Assembly: GCA_019113675.1 (NCBI GenBank)
Contig: DXHA01000068.1
Coordinates: forward strand, 1-40,127
Direction: 5' to 3'
Source: Candidatus Yaniella excrementigallinarum
Lineage (GTDB): Bacteria > Actinomycetota > Actinomycetes > Actinomycetales > Micrococcaceae
Length of the DNA stretch: 40,127 bases
Position numbers and translations under genes: made by a program. Positions 7,065 through 16,807 of this stretch are shown piece after piece. How positions within the stretch are numbered: position 1 is the stretch's first letter; the number at the start of each line of letters is the position of its first letter. The notes beneath the pieces are model-generated. The model saw only the letters and a program-made list of their open reading frames with translations, was not told where the DNA came from and ran no database searches.

Positions 7065-7470
7065 GAAGAGTCTGCCTTCCCTCAGAAAATTGCAACACAA
7101 GTTTGCTTAATGACAACGAATTTGGACACCCGAAAAATATAGGGGTGCTTAGACAGCTTAGCGTGATTTAGCTGTTTACGTCGACTAGTGATTTCGAAGC
7201 TCAGTTCTTTGTGGTGAACCAAAAATTCGGCTCATCGTTATTTAGAGGTATTTAAAGGATCAGGGGTGTTAGTAAGTGCTGTGGATATTGTGGAAAAGCT
7301 TGTGCATCGTCGGTATTGCAACCCTATTCCTGTGGAGGATTAAGTGCATTATCCACGTTTTGCTTGTGAGCATTGTGTGTAGAGACGATGGTCTTACATC
7401 GTTGTGATTCCACCGTTTTAGTGACTTATCCTCAGTCCTACTACCGTTATCCCCTTAATTATCAACAGGG

Positions 7471-7479
7471 TTATCCACA
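7471..7479 (+). promoter_or_regulatory. Consensus DnaA box
   Basis: Exact match to TTATCCACA in the middle of the densest cluster of DnaA-box-like 9-mers. It is flanked by degenerate boxes at 7447, 7459, 7505, 7517 and 7527. Confidence 0.85.
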
Positions 7480-7665
7480 GCCTGAAAAGACTACTGAATT
7501 TACCTGTGGAAAACCTTGTGGATCTCTGTGGATTGCAGTGGACCCCTATTTTTAGCAGATCGGTGCGTGGTACGCGTTCAAGCCACAATAGGGTTAATAG
7601 GGGTATGTGGAGATGGCTTCAACCTTAACCTCAAGGTAGGCAGGCGTAATCGGAAAAATTTAGTT

Positions 7666-7694
7666 ATTTTTGTGCTGCTATGCACCACAAAAAT
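7666..7694 (-). terminator. Probable dnaA terminator hairpin
   Basis: Nine-base inverted repeat (arms 7666-7674 and 7686-7694, ATTTTTGTG / CACAAAAAT) with an 11-base loop, placed two bases after the dnaA stop codon. Reading on the minus strand, AACTAAATTTTT follows the hairpin. The stem has few G-C pairs, so termination may be weak. The same AT-rich bases could serve as part of the DNA-unwinding element. Confidence 0.5.
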
Positions 7695-7696
7695 TT

Positions 7697-9217
7697 TTAA
7701 ACGTTTCTTGCCCGTTGCTTGATTTTGTTCGTTAATTCAGTGACCTGGTTGTAAATAGCATGACGTTCGCTCATCAGATCTCGGATTTTCCGATCTGCGT
7801 GCATCACTGTGGTGTGGTCTCGTCCACCGAATTCTGCGCCAATGCGCGGCAATGACATTTCGGTTAGCTCCCGCAGCAAATACATGGCTATTTGACGTGC
7901 GGTTACCAGTGTTCTGGTGCGGGATTTAGATTGCAGATCCGCCAGGGTAAAACCGAAATAGCTTGCCGTTTCGTCCAAGATCAAATCGGATGTAATTTCT
8001 TGGGCATTGTCGTCGGTGATCAGATCTTTGAGGATGTACTGGGCCTGGTCCAAATTAATTGGTTCATTATTCAATGAGGCATAGGCAGTGACACGGGTCA
8101 GAGCACCTTCCAGTTCACGAATGTTGGTATCGATGCGTGAAGCGATGTATTCCAGTGCGTCTTTGGGCACAGTGATACCTTCTGAATCGGCCTTTTTCGC
8201 CAAGATCGCAATTCGGGTTTCAAGATCCGGTGGCTGGATGTCTGTTGTAAGACCCCATTCGAAACGAGAACGAAGACGCTCTTCGAATCCTGACAGCTGC
8301 TTAGGTGGCAGATCGGAAGTGATCACAACTTGTTTATGGTTGTTGTACAAGGCGTTGAATGTGTGGAAGAACTCTTCAACGGTGGCTTCTTTATTGGCCA
8401 TGAATTGGATGTCATCAATTAGCAGAATGTCTACATTGCGGTAGATCTGCTTGAAGGAAGCACCTTCGTCGTGGCGAATAGAATTAATAAAATCGTTAGT
8501 GAATTCTTCAGAATTAACGTAGCGAACGCGTAAACCGGGGAAGAGTTCTTGAGCATAGTGCCCAATAGCATGGAGTAAGTGGGTCTTTCCGAGCCCTGAC
8601 TCTCCATAGATAAATAACGGATTATACGATTTCGCAGGTTGTTCCGATACCGCATATGCAGCGGCGTGAGCAAAACGGTTGGATGAACCTGTAATGAAGT
8701 TATCGAAGTGGTAGTGGACATTGAGCCGGGAGCGTTCCCCAGAACTTGGTGGCACCGTGAGCTGAGTACCACCGCTTGGCGATGGTGCTGGATTGGTTTG
8801 GGAACTAAATAATTCTTCTATAAGCGTTTCACCGGTAGGTTCTTCTTCGGTGGGAGCTTCTGGGGCTTCAGAGATATCCACAACGTTATCCACATGTTCA
8901 GTGTCGGGGATAGTGCGCTGGGGAGAAGTCGAGATTTCCGGTGTGGTGGCATGCAGATTGGTGTCAATAGAGTAGGCACAATTGATATCAGTGCCAAAAA
9001 CGTCCGTGAGTGCATCGGCAAGATATTGATGGAGATGGTTCTCGAGGATATCTCGGGTCATTTCATTGGGAACCGCTAAAAGTAACGTGTTGGCGATGAG
9101 CCCTTGGGGATGTGCAAGATCTAAAAAGCCCATCTGACTTAGCCCCACGTCACCAGAAGCGCGTACTTTCTCAACAACTCGCTGCCACGAGTTGATGATC
9201 GAATCGCTTACACTCAT
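7697..9217 (-). CDS. dnaA: Chromosomal replication initiator DnaA
   Basis: AAA+ initiator that binds DnaA boxes, melts oriC and recruits the helicase. The 506 residues show the N-terminal interaction domain (about 1-80), an acidic linker (about 95-160), the AAA+ domain with Walker A GESGLGKT (205-212) and Walker B LLIDD (265-269), and the C-terminal DNA-binding domain with the DnaA signature (IGAEFGGRDHTTVMHADRKI, 459-478). The ATG at 9217 has no good ribosome binding site of its own. It overlaps, as ATGA, the stop of a seven-codon leader ORF with a strong AGGAGG, so translation is probably coupled. A perfect DnaA box lies inside the coding region at 8886-8894. DnaA boxes on both sides suggest autoregulation. 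Confidence 0.98.
   Translation of the reverse strand: MSVSDSIINSWQRVVEKVRASGDVGLSQMGFLDLAHPQGLIANTLLLAVPNEMTRDILENHLHQYLADALTDVFGTDINCAYSIDTNLHATTPEISTSPQRTIPDTEHVDNVVDISEAPEAPTEEEPTGETLIEELFSSQTNPAPSPSGGTQLTVPPSSGERSRLNVHYHFDNFITGSSNRFAHAAAYAVSEQPAKSYNPLFIYGESGLGKTHLLHAIGHYAQELFPGLRVRYVNSEEFTNDFINSIRHDEGASFKQIYRNVDILLIDDIQFMANKEATVEEFFHTFNALYNNHKQVVITSDLPPKQLSGFEERLRSRFEWGLTTDIQPPDLETRIAILAKKADSEGITVPKDALEYIASRIDTNIRELEGALTRVTAYASLNNEPINLDQAQYILKDLITDDNAQEITSDLILDETASYFGFTLADLQSKSRTRTLVTARQIAMYLLRELTEMSLPRIGAEFGGRDHTTVMHADRKIRDLMSERHAIYNQVTELTNKIKQRARNV
8886..8894 (+). promoter_or_regulatory. Consensus DnaA box inside dnaA coding sequence
   Basis: Exact TTATCCACA within the dnaA linker-encoding segment, about 325 bp inside the gene from its start. 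It may be chance, or it may be part of the origin-proximal DnaA-binding landscape. Confidence 0.55.
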
Positions 9218-9237
9218 CCGTTAAAACCCCAATTCAT
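9214..9237 (-). CDS. Seven-residue leader peptide upstream of dnaA
   Basis: A short reading frame encoding MNWGFNG. Its ATG is at 9237, six bases after a full AGGAGG. Its TGA stop (9216-9214) overlaps the dnaA ATG (9217-9215) as ATGA. The dnaA start otherwise has only a weak GGGG upstream. The arrangement suggests that ribosomes initiate on the leader and re-initiate on dnaA. No leader at this place is known to me; the function (coupling, or attenuation through ribosome stalling) is inference. Confidence 0.55.
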   Translation of the reverse strand: MNWGFNG

Positions 9238-9292
9238 CCTTGCCCTCCTGATAAACGAATTTTGCATCAGGGCGCAATATTTTCGCCACGCT

Positions 9293-9301
9293 TTATCCAC
9301 A
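9293..9301 (+). promoter_or_regulatory. Consensus DnaA box upstream of dnaA
   Basis: Exact TTATCCACA about 76 bases upstream of the dnaA start codon. The position suits DnaA autoregulation of its own promoter or an origin function. Confidence 0.8.
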
Positions 9302-9447
9302 AGTTGTGTCCGTACTCTGCCAGTACCTGCAATGTTCTGGCACATCTACTGTCACAACCTTAGCCTTTATATCCACAGGGTGAACAAAGATATGCACAGC
9401 TTATTCACATAGTGGCACTCAGAGGTAACTGAATTACGATCTCGAAT

Positions 9448-9476
9448 TTGACCAAACGGTTTGCTATTCATAGACT
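9448..9476 (+). promoter_or_regulatory. Candidate rpmH promoter
   Basis: TTGACC (9448-9453), a 17-base spacer, then TAGACT (9471-9476), close to the housekeeping consensus. Transcription would start near 9483 and leave a leader of about 150 bases before rpmH. Confidence 0.5.
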
Positions 9477-9635
9477 TATTGAGTCTTAACCGGGGTAGTA
9501 GCGTGCCCTTTTTGGCCGCCGCCGGAAAGATATGAACAGCAAATGACCTAATATCGCCGAAGTTTTTGGGCAAACTCAGTTTGAACGTACTTCCCAAGCA
9601 TGCTTCTGCGTTTGATTGAGTGTGGAGAATTAACA

Positions 9636-9773
9636 GTGACTAAGCGGACTTTTCAGCCGAATAACCGCCGCCGTGCCCGTAAGCATGGCTTCCGTTCCCG
9701 TATGCGTACTCGCGCCGGTCGTGCAGTCTTGTCCGCCCGCCGTGGCAAGGGTCGCGCACGTCTAAGCGCCTAG
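9636..9773 (+). CDS. rpmH: 50S ribosomal protein L34
   Basis: 45-residue basic ribosomal protein starting at GTG 9636 ([20 protein letters not shown]...) and ending GRARLSA. The sequence matches the full length of bacterial L34, with the conserved [19 protein letters not shown] core. A GGAG lies eight bases before the start. It heads the rpmH-rnpA-yidD-yidC-jag-rsmG cluster, the standard order to the right of dnaA. Confidence 0.97.
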
Positions 9774-12770: not shown

Positions 12771-12801
12771 TTAGTTCAAATTTAAAGTAATGGAGGCTGG
12801 T

Positions 12802-13740
12802 TTGGTCGATCAGGAGAAAGTTTCACGTGAAACGCCGAAGAGTGCCACGAGTGCTGCATCGACTCCGCTGGCCCGTGAATTGGAATCAGAGAAGCGTCGG
12901 CGTGAAAAGCTAAAAACCAAACGGATGGCTCGCCCCGATCATACCCGTATCATTACTATCTCGAATCAAAAGGGTGGCGTTGGCAAAACGACCACAACCG
13001 TAAATCTCGCCACGGCTATGGCACGTGCTGGAATGAATGTCGTGGTTATTGATACTGACCCGCAGGGTAACGCGTCAACGGCATTGAATATTCCACACCA
13101 ACAGGGCGTCCCTTCAATTTATAATGTGCTCATCGAAGACTATGAACTCAAAGATGTCCTGTATGAAAATCCAGACACGGATAATCTGTTGGTGGCACCG
13201 TCAACGATCGACTTAGCTGGGGCTGAGATCGAGCTGGTGTCCTTGGTAGCAAGGGAGCAACGTTTATCGCGGGCTTTACAACGGTACTTTGAATATCGTG
13301 AAGAGAGCGGCTTAGAACGTATTGATTATATCTTTATCGACTGTCCACCTAGCCTTGGGCTGCTAACCGTAAACGCTTTCGTTGCGGCGAATGAAGTACT
13401 CATTCCAATTCAGACAGAATATTATGCCCTTGAAGGTCTCTCGCAATTAGTTAAAAACATTCAAATGATTCAAGAGCACCTCAATCCAGAGCTCCATGTA
13501 TCTACTATCGTGCTCACGATGTTCGATTCAAGGACCAATTTAGCGGTTCAAGTCGCTGAAGAAGTCCGCGAGTATTTCCCAGGTCAGGTATTGAAAACTG
13601 TGATTCCTAGGAATGTCAGGATCTCAGAGGCACCTTCGTACCAGCAAAGTGTTCTCACTTACGATCCAAGTTCTACGGGTGCTCTGAGCTACCGTGAGGC
13701 AGCTATGGAGATCGCCGACCGTGGTGTAAAAGCCTCATAG
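12802..13740 (+). CDS. parA: Chromosome partitioning ATPase ParA (Soj)
   Basis: Walker-type ATPase that binds the nucleoid when ATP-bound and drives movement of ParB-parS complexes. The deviant Walker A KGGVGKTT is at about 57-64, followed by VVVIDTDPQGNAST and the Walker B region IDYIFIDCPPSLGLL. An N-terminal extension of about 48 mostly basic residues precedes the fold. I prefer the TTG at 12802 because GGAGG lies five bases upstream; the ATG at 12790 overlaps that GGAGG and has no binding site of its own. A perfect parS lies within codons 7-11 (reads as V-S-R-E-T). parB is separated from parA by 1.87 kb instead of following directly. Confidence 0.96.
   Translation: MVDQEKVSRETPKSATSAASTPLARELESEKRRREKLKTKRMARPDHTRIITISNQKGGVGKTTTTVNLATAMARAGMNVVVIDTDPQGNASTALNIPHQQGVPSIYNVLIEDYELKDVLYENPDTDNLLVAPSTIDLAGAEIELVSLVAREQRLSRALQRYFEYREESGLERIDYIFIDCPPSLGLLTVNAFVAANEVLIPIQTEYYALEGLSQLVKNIQMIQEHLNPELHVSTIVLTMFDSRTNLAVQVAEEVREYFPGQVLKTVIPRNVRISEAPSYQQSVLTYDPSSTGALSYREAAMEIADRGVKAS
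12820..12833. promoter_or_regulatory. parS site 1, inside parA
   Basis: Exact 14-bp palindrome GTTTCACGTGAAAC, the universal ParB-binding core, within the first codons of parA. The position would allow ParB to affect parA expression. Confidence 0.92.
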
Positions 13741-13946
13741 AAAGCGTTATTAAAGTCAATCTACTTTAGTTGTCTATATCAAAGTAGGCGCCGAGACTGA
13801 ATTCTTGCGTGTAAGCCGAATTGATGCTTTTGTATAGCGCAAGCGGTCCAAAATCTTAATGCCGAATAACAACGAACGAACACCCAAATTCGTCTGATAC
13901 CGTTGCTTCTATCTGGGTCGGTATTTTTTTGTTCCATGCTATTAGT

Positions 13947-13960
13947 GTTTCACGTGAAAC
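13947..13960. promoter_or_regulatory. parS site 2
   Basis: Exact GTTTCACGTGAAAC, 206 bp after the parA stop. Confidence 0.93.
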
Positions 13961-14082
13961 TCGACAGGTGGATCTGGTTGTTATCTGCTTAGTTTCCGGC
14001 GCAGAGTATTGTTGCGTAATAATGTTCCCGAAATCATAGAAAATGTTGCCTCCCCTGCCGTCTTCTAAAATATTCTCGACGA

Positions 14083-14096
14083 ATTTCACGTGAAAC
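14083..14096. promoter_or_regulatory. parS site 3
   Basis: 13 of 14 match (first base A): ATTTCACGTGAAAC. The central 12-bp palindrome is intact. Confidence 0.87.
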
Positions 14097-14412
14097 CACT
14101 CTTGGTGCCTCTACGCGTCAGCCGGTATATTTGAAACATAAGGCTCCAGTTTTGGCACTCTTTACGACATTCTCGATGCCGGTATAAATTTTTCATGGCC
14201 AAAAGAAGACCTACACACGAATAAATCTGCAGTGGCTGATCCAGTATTGTTTTACGTGACCTTGAGATGTACTGAAGCTGCCTTTATGTCTTCGCTTTTG
14301 CTTTGCAAACGCTCCCTTTAGTGCCCAAATACTGCTTTCTGATGGGACGGTGGCTAGAGGCCACACGGTTAGGAAATCTGAAGTCTTCGTAATTAAGGCA
14401 GTGTCGAGTGCG

Positions 14413-14426
14413 TTTTCACGTGAAAC
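14413..14426. promoter_or_regulatory. parS site 4
   Basis: 13 of 14 match (first base T): TTTTCACGTGAAAC. The central 12-bp palindrome is intact. Confidence 0.87.
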
Positions 14427-14589
14427 GGTTTCTGTTAGGATACCACTCTGTCGAGAAGCAGAGTAAAGGTTCCAAGAGAATTATAGTAGTTGCCAACTCA
14501 GTTCAGTATTCGAGTATTCCAGTCGGAATTGGTGGTTGCGCCGTATTCTTTAGTCCTGTTTATATGAACTAGGAAGGATCAGTAACTTC

Positions 14590-14603
14590 GTTTCACGTGA
14601 AAC
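14590..14603. promoter_or_regulatory. parS site 5
   Basis: Exact GTTTCACGTGAAAC. Confidence 0.93.
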
Positions 14604-14980
14604 AATGCAATATCTGTAAGCCTAATCGCAAAGCCTAAACTATTGGGTTGAATATAGGTTGCTCATTGTCTCGACCAGATGTGCAGTTGCAGATACTGCC
14701 GGATTCACATGAGAGTTTTTGGTCATTTAGGGCACTATTCGCACACCCTCGTCTGGGTCAACAAATTTCAAATTTTGTTTCACAATAGTCAGAAGAGCAG
14801 TATTGGGTAGAGTGATTTTGCAATGGCATTCGCTAGTCATGGTCGCCATCCAGGTTGTTGATTGTTTGATACGTGTACTAAGGAGAAACCATTTACACCC
14901 AAAATTATTATAAGCTACCCGGTGCTATCAGTATTGATAGTCTGAAGTCTAGTCAGCTATAAATTGGGTATATCCGGTCC

Positions 14981-14994
14981 GTTTCATGTGAAAC
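14981..14994. promoter_or_regulatory. parS site 6 (variant)
   Basis: GTTTCATGTGAAAC, one change in the centre (C to T). Such central variants are tolerated in some known parS sets, so ParB binding is likely but may be weaker. Confidence 0.75.
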
Positions 14995-15213
14995 ATTACG
15001 AGCATGTTGGGTCCTTTCGGAAGGTTCTGCGCCATTGGTTTATGTCTATAGATGCGTATTCGAGAGGCAATGGATGGGTAATTTTAGATTCCGGAGTAGG
15101 TTCCTCGGTAATAAACGCATTTTACCGTGTAACGTCGCGTTTACTGTCTGGTTCCTACGAAAATGGATTCTTCATCGAATCTATTCTTTAAGGCAAAGAC
15201 GAAGATCACTCCT

Positions 15214-15227
15214 ATTTCACGTGAAAC
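15214..15227. promoter_or_regulatory. parS site 7
   Basis: 13 of 14 match (first base A): ATTTCACGTGAAAC. Confidence 0.87.
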
Positions 15228-15390
15228 GTCGATACTTGGCCCGAATAATAATCTTTGATCACTATGGGGCGCGTAAAAGGTAAAACTTATTGCTCATCAC
15301 AGATTGAATGGCGACGGAGGCAACGTGTTGCTTGGCTACTTTGGAGGAATTGCGGCTGCAGCCATCAATATATGCAATCATTGATGTCCA

Positions 15391-15404
15391 GTTTCACGTG
15401 AAAC
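15391..15404. promoter_or_regulatory. parS site 8
   Basis: Exact GTTTCACGTGAAAC. Confidence 0.93.
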
Positions 15405-15525
15405 ACGCAGTTATTGACCATCGAATAGCTTTTGGTAGTGGTTCATACGGTAGGAGGAGTAAATTCATTGTCCCTACTCCTTTCTCATAGTCAGTTAAAA
15501 TAATCATCCGCAAAACGCCATGGTC

Positions 15526-15539
15526 GTTTCACGTGAAAC
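15526..15539. promoter_or_regulatory. parS site 9, upstream of parB
   Basis: Exact GTTTCACGTGAAAC, 74 bp upstream of the parB start. It lies just before an AT-rich stretch (tatgataat, 15564-15572) that may hold the parB -10 element, so it could mediate autoregulation. Confidence 0.93.
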
Positions 15540-15613
15540 AGCGCAAAATCTTGCCAAAAAAGCTATGATAATAGAGGTGGAGTCAAGGTTTCTGAAGCAG
15601 CGGAGGAGAACGA

Positions 15614-16807
15614 ATGACGCAGCAACCAAAAAAGAGTAGACGTGGACTAGGACGGGGCCTAGGAGCACTGATCCAAAACACATCTGAGATAGAACCCGAA
15701 GAGGAAAACGACACAGACAGCAACGAGAGTTCTGAAGCCACCCAAATCACAGATCAAGCACCTGCAGTTGATTCAACGAAGCCAAAGGACTCTATTGAGC
15801 TTCGATACCTCGACGGCGCAAAGCCTGCCCGAGATCGTAAACGACCTTCTGATCTTTTTTTTGGTGATGCCGGCACCAGTCAAACTGAATCAACAAAGCA
15901 CAAGGCATCGCGGGCAGCAATGCCCAACCCCATACTGGATCGTACACGTACGTCATGGGACAACGAGGATTCGACAGAAACAAAGGTCGAGTCCGGTGAC
16001 GGTAGTCTCCTTAATGAAATTCTAGTCGACGACATCGTTCCCAATCCCCGGCAACCACGTGATGAGTTCGATGAAGAATCCATGATCGAACTTGTTGCGT
16101 CGATATCCGAGGTTGGTGTCTTACAGCCGGTAGTTGTAAGGACAACGGAAACACCCAACAAATATGAATTGATTATGGGTGAACGCCGCTGGCGGGCGTC
16201 TAAGCGTGCTGGTTTAGACACTATCCCTGCAATCATTCGGGATACCGCAGACGAAGATATGCTTCGTGAAGCGCTACTCGAGAATATTCACCGCAGTGAG
16301 TTGAACGCGTTAGAGGAGGCAGCAGCCTACCAGCAACTCATGAACGATTTCGGTTGGTCCCAGGAGATCTTGTCGAAACGTATCGGGCGTTCCCGGCCGC
16401 ATATTTCGAATACGCTGCGCTTGATGAATTTGCCACCCGCCATCCAAAGGCAGGTTGCCTCCGGGGTGTTGTCGGCTGGACATGCCAGAGCAATTCTTGG
16501 GCTCTCAGACCAATCGCTGATGAACCAGCTGGCTCAACGGGTGATCAATGAGTCTTTATCTGTTCGCGCAACAGAAGAGCTGGCAACGCTTATGGCACGA
16601 AACCAGGAGGACGCTGCTAAAGCACCCGTCCGGCCGCGACGTAATACTCAGCAGTTTGATGAGATGGCATCGTCGTTAACTGATCTCCTTGATACATCGG
16701 TAAAAATCACCCTTGGTGCCAAAAAAGGGCGTATCGCAATCGATTTCGCTTCAGTTGATGATTTGAACCGAATTATGGCAGTCATTAGCCCAGAATCTGC
16801 TGACTGA
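15614..16807 (+). CDS. parB: Chromosome partitioning protein ParB (Spo0J)
   Basis: CTP-dependent clamp that loads at parS, spreads along DNA and recruits ParA and condensin. The 397 residues have the N-terminal ParA-stimulating peptide (RRGLGRGLGAL, 9-19), a long polar linker of about 110 residues (22-130), the CTPase/N-engagement domain with GERRWRA (189-195) and ENIHRSELN (223-231), the helix-turn-helix (WSQEILSKRIGRSRPHISNTLRL, about 248-270) and the C-terminal dimerisation domain (from about 345). The linker is longer than in many chromosomal ParBs. The ATG at 15614 has a strong GGAGGAG five bases upstream. The gene ends 63 bp before a shared terminator hairpin. Confidence 0.96.
   Translation: MTQQPKKSRRGLGRGLGALIQNTSEIEPEEENDTDSNESSEATQITDQAPAVDSTKPKDSIELRYLDGAKPARDRKRPSDLFFGDAGTSQTESTKHKASRAAMPNPILDRTRTSWDNEDSTETKVESGDGSLLNEILVDDIVPNPRQPRDEFDEESMIELVASISEVGVLQPVVVRTTETPNKYELIMGERRWRASKRAGLDTIPAIIRDTADEDMLREALLENIHRSELNALEEAAAYQQLMNDFGWSQEILSKRIGRSRPHISNTLRLMNLPPAIQRQVASGVLSAGHARAILGLSDQSLMNQLAQRVINESLSVRATEELATLMARNQEDAAKAPVRPRRNTQQFDEMASSLTDLLDTSVKITLGAKKGRIAIDFASVDDLNRIMAVISPESAD

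Follow-up and report, generated by a model that had tools for sequence, protein, structure and literature searches.

A gene-free parS array between parA and parB in Yaniella and its position across the Micrococcaceae

Introduction

Bacterial centromeres are usually described as short sites scattered near the origin, and parA and parB usually form a tight, though not obligatory, operon. In the locus described here the two genes are set apart, with parS sites between them. It lies in a stretch of 40,127 nucleotides from Candidatus Yaniella excrementigallinarum (contig DXHA01000068.1), termed the window in what follows. An initial annotation, made from the sequence alone, proposed that the parA-parB spacer is a discrete centromere free of genes and coding constraint, which would place parB under a promoter of its own. 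We summarize the composition of this array, its conservation in Yaniella and its position in related bacteria, and discuss its putative role in chromosome segregation and parB expression. It is established that ParB depends on CTP, is loaded at parS and then spreads by sliding along the DNA (PMC7053999, PMC8367383).

Genomic context and partition proteins

The genes gyrB, recF, dnaN and dnaA (7697-9217) are located on the minus strand, and five of the six DnaA-box matches in the window fall at 7289-9301. Next, on the plus strand, come genes coding for a 60KD_IMP (YidC-like) protein and an R3H protein, followed by rsmG (GidB), parA, the parS-bearing spacer and parB, and thereafter, again on the minus strand, genes for a thioredoxin and a pyridine nucleotide-disulphide oxidoreductase. 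The spacer, called the island below, starts 4.5 kb from dnaA (Table 1).

The domain content of ParA and ParB is ordinary. ParA matches AAA_31 with 198.4 bits (cut-off 27) and CbiA with 100.1 bits (cut-off 25.4), and ParB scores above the cut-offs of PF02195, PF17762 and PF23552, which correspond to its N-terminal domain, the HTH and the C-terminal dimerisation domain, respectively. ParB also has a long N-terminal stretch before ParB_N, where the segment RYLDGxKPAR..RPSDLFFGD (15788-15877) appears in the A1 consensus (8 of 10 rows from Yaniella) and is possibly a partner-binding motif.

Among the NCBIfam models nucleoid_noc scores highest against this protein (221.9 bits), as might be expected if the palindromes served Noc-type nucleoid occlusion and not ParB-type segregation. 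Such a function is scarcely credible, given that the score falls short of the curated cut-off (315), that the protein does exceed the cut-off of TIGR00180 parB_part (196.2 vs 58.45), that the gene stands beside parA, and that Noc has a binding site different from parS.

Table 1. Features of the parA-parB region; positions refer to the window
Feature	Position	Strand	Description
parA	12790..13740	+	316 aa, ParA-type ATPase; Pfam AAA_31 E=1.2e-58, CbiA E=1.2e-28
parS, exact, intragenic	12820..12833	+	5' coding end of parA; reads VSRET (motif search and translation)
Island (parA-parB spacer)	13741..15613	.	gene-free, parS-bearing, 1873 bp, GC 0.43
Possible parA terminator	13896..13930	+	stem GATACCG..CGGTATT, then T run; local fold -8.1 kcal/mol; missed by consensus scan
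parS, exact	13947..13960	+	motif search
parS, one edge change	14083..14096	+	motif search
parS, one edge change	14413..14426	+	motif search
parS, exact	14590..14603	+	motif search
parS, one central change	14981..14994	+	motif search
parS, one edge change	15214..15227	+	motif search
parS, exact	15391..15404	+	motif search
parS, exact, promoter-proximal	15526..15539	+	88 bp before parB start
Candidate -10 element of parB promoter	15564..15569	+	TATGAT, 24 nt after parS
parB	15614..16807	+	397 aa; ParB_N, HTH_ParB, ParB_C; Pfam E=4.1e-35, 6e-34, 4.7e-07

The parS array of the island

With GTTTCACGTGAAAC as the exact parS motif, the island harbours eight sites, four exact and four with a single change, and a ninth, exact site is found inside parA. 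This matches precisely the earlier count, in which four of the spacer sites are exact, three are altered at an edge and one in the centre, and a further exact one lies in parA. Throughout the window ten matches occur at up to three mismatches, where 1.87 are expected, and no shuffle out of 100 attains this number. A search of the entire genome (2.56 Mb, 99 contigs, 99.75% complete) returned the same nine sites at up to one mismatch and no others; all nine are confined to parA and the spacer. Five further sites with two mismatches are scattered over the genome and represent chance level, since a reversed control pattern yields 13 matches at up to two mismatches. The island is also AT-rich, as had been noted, with a GC content of 0.43 vs 0.51 for the enclosing 20-kb stretch. 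The confinement of the sites agrees with the proposal of a discrete parS island, which, judged from its sequence, very probably acts as a centromere.

Two of the sites, at 14588-14615 and 15524-15551, resemble each other beyond the 14-mer (89% over 28 nt) and perhaps reflect the duplication of one site. The parS inside parA is represented by a centrally changed copy, GTTTCAGGTGAAAC, in three Yaniella species, and two have no site at up to one mismatch at this place; the intragenic parS thus seems dispensable.

Conservation in Yaniella

The Yaniella sample comprises nine genomes, of which eight contain ParB (the ninth is 71% complete) and seven carry parA and parB on one contig. In these seven (the window's genome, G001, G002, G003, G004, G005 and G008) the spacers measure 1873, 3403, 1684, 2149, 2872, 1907 and 1844 bp and include 8, 6, 8, 10, 8, 10 and 9 parS sites, respectively. 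The contig of G006 breaks off within the array; the 1878 bp that remain upstream of parB include six exact parS. G004 is exceptional in having one site in parB and two one-mismatch sites outside the locus, the latter number being also reached by the reversed control. The expectation that relatives share a long spacer with conserved 14-mers is therefore borne out in all seven measurable genomes, in which the parB-proximal edge is conserved too, and an assembly artefact is rejected, as the other measurable Yaniella genomes agree on the long spacer.

Positions and numbers of parS vary between Yaniella species. Two-mismatch sites exceed simulation in three of the seven spacers (G002, G003 and G008), but not in the other four, and such possible relic sites are at most suggestive of turnover. 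A regular spacing of sites was likewise considered: the Yaniella arrays look more even than random in five of seven cases (rank under 0.03), yet regularity is not claimed, since at the level of genera 8 of 10 genus means lie below 0.5 (binomial p = 0.11).

A spacer without genes

Four ORFs of 60-82 aa occur in the island, the longest of which (82 aa) compares to a shuffled mean of 82.2. Pfam yielded no match for three of these four ORFs of at least 60 aa, the fourth (15308-15490, 60 aa) lying outside the scan, and Rfam, which covers known RNA families only, yielded none in the window's spacer up to E = 1. Among the Yaniella spacers, compared by tblastx with parS masked, 0 of 21 pairs share a frame at E<1e-4, and their best codon scores (-22 to +6) are near the shuffled maxima (-6 to +5). 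The codon-score test does detect gene-like ORFs elsewhere, namely in the spacers of two other Micrococcaceae, G050 (+113, 420 aa) and G074 (+43, 345 aa). Hence, ORF length, codon score, tblastx and Rfam are all negative in Yaniella, as anticipated for DNA under no coding constraint between the sites; by tblastx and codon score the Yaniella spacers share no gene, and a gene in the spacer is rejected for this genus.

An alignment of three close species (G002, G005 and G008) specifies which parts of the island persist. In the background, 201 of 956 ungapped columns are identical, compared to 183-218 of 878-1028 in eight shuffled controls, whereas identity amounts to 219/300 in parA and to 51/85 in the remainder of the final 100 bp upstream of parB; the value for ungapped parS columns, 110/190, is inflated, since MAFFT seeds on the 14-mers. 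With its background at shuffled identity, the island is saturated in these species except for parS and the parB-proximal edge. The earlier description of a spacer with nothing but parS thus holds with regard to genes, but not for the last ~100 bp, which form a conserved promoter-like stretch for parB.

Two alternative readings of the spacer are weighed against these data. An unrecognised small RNA or small protein gene could reside in the four ORFs of 60-82 aa or belong to a family beyond those known to Rfam; such a gene is very improbable in view of the negative Rfam and tblastx searches and of a background identity that equals the shuffled one in three species. Long spacers in bacteria are often relics, and the gene-like ORFs in G050 and G074 would be in keeping with a decayed gene or insertion, in which parS is incidental or decaying. 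A relic appears hardly conceivable here, since the spacer is present in several other genera and in all 7 Yaniella genomes that could be measured, including one assembled as a single contig, shows neither frame nor codon signal in Yaniella and retains arrays of 6-10 sites at up to one mismatch.

A conserved terminator of parA was sought downstream of the gene and rejected: for the possible terminator of the window (Table 1), the six other Yaniella genomes offer a hairpin of -8.4 kcal/mol in G003, a weak one (-2.8) in G005 and none in the remaining four. In G003 (L023) the hairpin is a parS palindrome followed by a T run, which lies ~78 nt past the parA stop and could fold like an intrinsic terminator.

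Position of the array in Micrococcaceae and beyond

The family search covered 129 genomes; ParA and ParB were each found in 128, and the spacer could be estimated in 126, of which 42 have a parA-parB gap of at least 1000 bp. Detailed maps were drawn for 86 loci, i.e., 7 from Yaniella and 79 of 82 further family regions (G063 and G064 were left out, and G015/L162 was dropped because tblastn did not find parB in it). The selection favours genera with long spacers and includes at most two genomes per short-spacer genus, and consequently the 86 loci are not a fair sample of frequencies. Named groups among them are Rothia (g3), Galactobacter (g11), Pseudoglutamicibacter (g12), Nesterenkonia (g13) and Micrococcus (g15).

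Within this set, parS sites in the parA-parB gap outnumber those downstream of parB in 43 loci, the opposite is true of 40, and 3 tie. The numbers in the two slots are anticorrelated (Spearman -0.84, 86 loci), and the median total is similar for both (8 vs 7). On a quick tree of ParA, ParB and RsmG the slot needs 5 changes, compared to a minimum of 21 and a mean of 28 in 200 label shuffles; this count omits the three tied genomes and does not distinguish gains from losses. Of the 43 middle-slot loci, 35 fall into one clade of 43 rows (SH-aLRT 95, no bootstrap), and the other eight belong to g14 (3) and g21 (5). The exceptions within the clade are g17 (one genome), four of six Rothia loci and three of Pseudoglutamicibacter (one downstream, two ties). 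The g17 genome (G024, L165), placed beside Yaniella on a long branch and unsure in its position, has a 98-bp gap and downstream sites. Several genera (g12, g14 and g18) carry parS on both sides of parB. The middle-slot arrangement is thus common to several genera of the Micrococcaceae and not peculiar to the window's genome, while the sites of other members lie mainly downstream of parB.

The share of genome-wide parS (up to one mismatch) within the fetched locus is 261/280 for the middle and 253/297 for the downstream slot, and all such sites are located there in 18 of 33 and 23 of 39 genomes, respectively. In four genomes of three other genera (L164, L161, L167 and L180) the parB-trx gaps extend over 4.0-6.4 kb and include 7-10 parS without coding signal (G017, 6372 bp and 8 sites; G014, 5502 and 7; G027, 5932 and 8; G046, 4015 and 10); other parB-trx gaps contain gene-like ORFs, e.g., in G039 and G026. 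In G050 (L127) a 7.5-kb parA-parB gap combines 11 parS with the 420-aa gene-like ORF (8490-9752, minus strand).

Outside the family, 77 of 80 named loci gave a row, and six of these 77 have at least four parS in an rsmG-parA gap of at least 1.5 kb. Georgenia and Occultella (L056, L099) keep 9/9 sites of the fetched locus in 3010 bp and 7/7 in 2502 bp of this gap, respectively. The gap before parA is possibly a third parS slot.

A putative parB promoter at the island edge

The separation of parA from parB implies the need for a separate parB promoter, which seems to sit at the right edge of the island. In all eight Yaniella genomes with parB, the distance from the start of an exact parS to the parB start codon is 82-90 bp, and 24-25 nt separate the end of this parS from a downstream TANNNT, which we take to be the actinobacterial -10 core. 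TANNNT is degenerate, three of its letters being fixed, and its frequency in Yaniella spacers is 0.013 per position; the genomes being related, 8/8 does not mean eight independent events. In the window the -10-like element, 24 nt after the last parS, would place this site at about -37 to -50 from the transcription start. A generic sigma-70 scan did not report the candidate (4 matches vs 4.0 in shuffles), and no good -35 was seen. As to the idea that parB has a promoter of its own, the -10-like element is indeed present at a fixed distance from the last parS, and transcription would presumably start from it.

A different geometry is found in g2 (1 genome) and g4 (6 genomes), where in 7/7 the nearest upstream parS (one mismatch allowed) is separated from TANNNT by 4-5 nt and starts 41-61 nt before a possible parB start. 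Three of the g4 starts were set upstream, and the corresponding spacers measure 1984, 1777 and 2267 bp. In g17 a one-mismatch parS lies just before TANNNT upstream of parB, despite the parA-parB gap of 98 bp, and in Nesterenkonia TANNNT follows 45-47 nt after parS in 4/5. No fixed spacing between the parB-nearest parS and TANNNT was found in g6, Galactobacter, Micrococcus and g21; promoter wiring is therefore not necessary for an island in this slot, and a promoter-parS rule for all genera is ruled out. The parS in the rsmG-parA gap showed no general TANNNT spacing either.

These patterns bear on the question of whether the layout is functional or accidental. The array could function as a centromere and yet be no more than a usual cluster of parS near the origin, its slot and promoter spacing being due to neutral drift and parB not being regulated by ParB. 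This is a distinct possibility, though one that we rather doubt. The nearly equal site numbers in the two slots, the differences in site position and number between Yaniella species and the several genera with the same slot and no fixed promoter spacing are compatible with drift, but the parS-TANNNT distance is fixed in Yaniella (8/8) and, at another value, in g2 and g4 (7/7), and this spacing has been kept although the background is saturated in the three Yaniella species compared.

A model for the island

We consider it likely that the island is the chromosome's ParB-loading centromere, with its last site placed to let ParB control parB. The island would be a compact element whose main task is to provide sites for ParB loading. 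After loading at parS, ParB dimers would form closed CTP-dependent clamps that slide along the island and on into parA and parB. Traction by ParA on the resulting ParB-island complex would segregate the origin. The lack of genes would reduce passing transcription and would allow loading sites to be closely packed and to be gained and lost without hindrance, as the intervening DNA drifts.

The middle slot would also expose the parB promoter to ParB. A parS that abuts or lies inside a core promoter makes control of parB by ParB likely, and loading at the last parS would control parB expression, most likely through repression, tying the supply of ParB to the occupancy of the centromere. Judged from the arrangement of sites, we put the chance that ParB controls its own gene at slightly better than even. 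Autoregulation is common in plasmid partition systems. Repression is proposed because it fits these systems as well as the action of Pseudomonas aeruginosa ParB at parS3/parS4 (PMC7022226).

Relation to known systems

Chromosomal ParABS systems of the Soj/Spo0J type share with the Yaniella locus the ParA and ParB domains, the palindrome, the vicinity of dnaA and the presence of several sites. In contrast, parA and parB do not form a tight operon here but are set apart by 1873 bp, and all sites at up to one mismatch reside in this gene-free gap and in parA.

The nearest published parallel found (PMC9040568) is the 3parS locus of the repABC megaplasmid pAMI4, a noncoding, AT-rich stretch of 2047 bp with three parS that is reported to be essential for partition, together with an analogous region of 1.5-2.4 kb and two parS on chromosome 2 of Allorhizobium vitis. 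Like the Yaniella island, 3parS is a kilobase-scale, gene-free and AT-rich stretch with several parS. It differs in belonging to a plasmid or chromid with repABC proteins and a parS sequence of its own, whereas the Yaniella island employs GTTTCACGTGAAAC in a chromosomal dnaA/dnaN/gyrB context, and in its location, which is not between the partition genes but at a distance from repC of 11.5 kb in pAMI4 and of 30-90 kb in the A. vitis type. The same source describes Rhizobiales repABC modules with parS between parA-like and parB-like genes and a proposed role in transcription; these are plasmid sites that occupy the repA-repB gap or the 5' end of repB, and not a kilobase-scale chromosomal array (PMC9040568).

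A precedent for regulation is P. aeruginosa, where ParB represses adjacent genes through the intergenic sites parS3/parS4 (PMC7022226). As is proposed for Yaniella, transcription is influenced by a chromosomal parS next to a promoter, yet the regulated genes are PA0011 and PA0013 and not parB.

Within the family, the parB-trx stretches of other Micrococcaceae resemble the island in being gene-poor and similar in site number, and in the best cases, e.g., G017 with 6372 bp and 8 sites, they extend over several kb without coding signal. They are found on the other side of parB, some contain gene-like ORFs, and the parA-parB gap of G017 is 67 bp.

None of the open-licence matches listed, judged by titles and the beginnings of abstracts, describes a chromosomal array placed between parA and parB; this applies to open-licence papers and not to subscription ones, such as the 2007 parS survey. 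An open-licence search for Yaniella together with ParB gave no paper, and the excerpts of PMC4255298 and PMC10547168 have no bearing on the layout of a parA-parB array.

Conclusions

The island of Yaniella is real and conserved, and it represents a new layout of a ParABS centromere, not a new kind of system. From the sites and their surroundings we infer that ParB binds there and that the origin is segregated through this complex. As a tentative generalisation, which may well hold but falls somewhat short of probable, Micrococcales would keep one parS island, for which a fixed gene row offers three alternative slots: upstream of parA, in the parA-parB gap or downstream of parB. The slot would change by gain and loss of 14-mers and not by movement of DNA. 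In the middle slot the last parS would more than once have become part of the parB promoter, with at least two arrangements, one in which the site directly precedes the -35 region and one in which it falls between -35 and -10, and centromere occupancy would directly set the supply of ParB.

The locus depicts a probable chromosomal centromere as a discrete, gene-free and fast-evolving island, of which close species share hardly more than the ParB sites and the edge with the putative parB promoter. The different slots adopted by different lineages provide a natural experiment on the requirements of ParB loading in terms of site number, spacing and freedom from transcription, and the same differences may serve to ask whether ParB controls its own dose.
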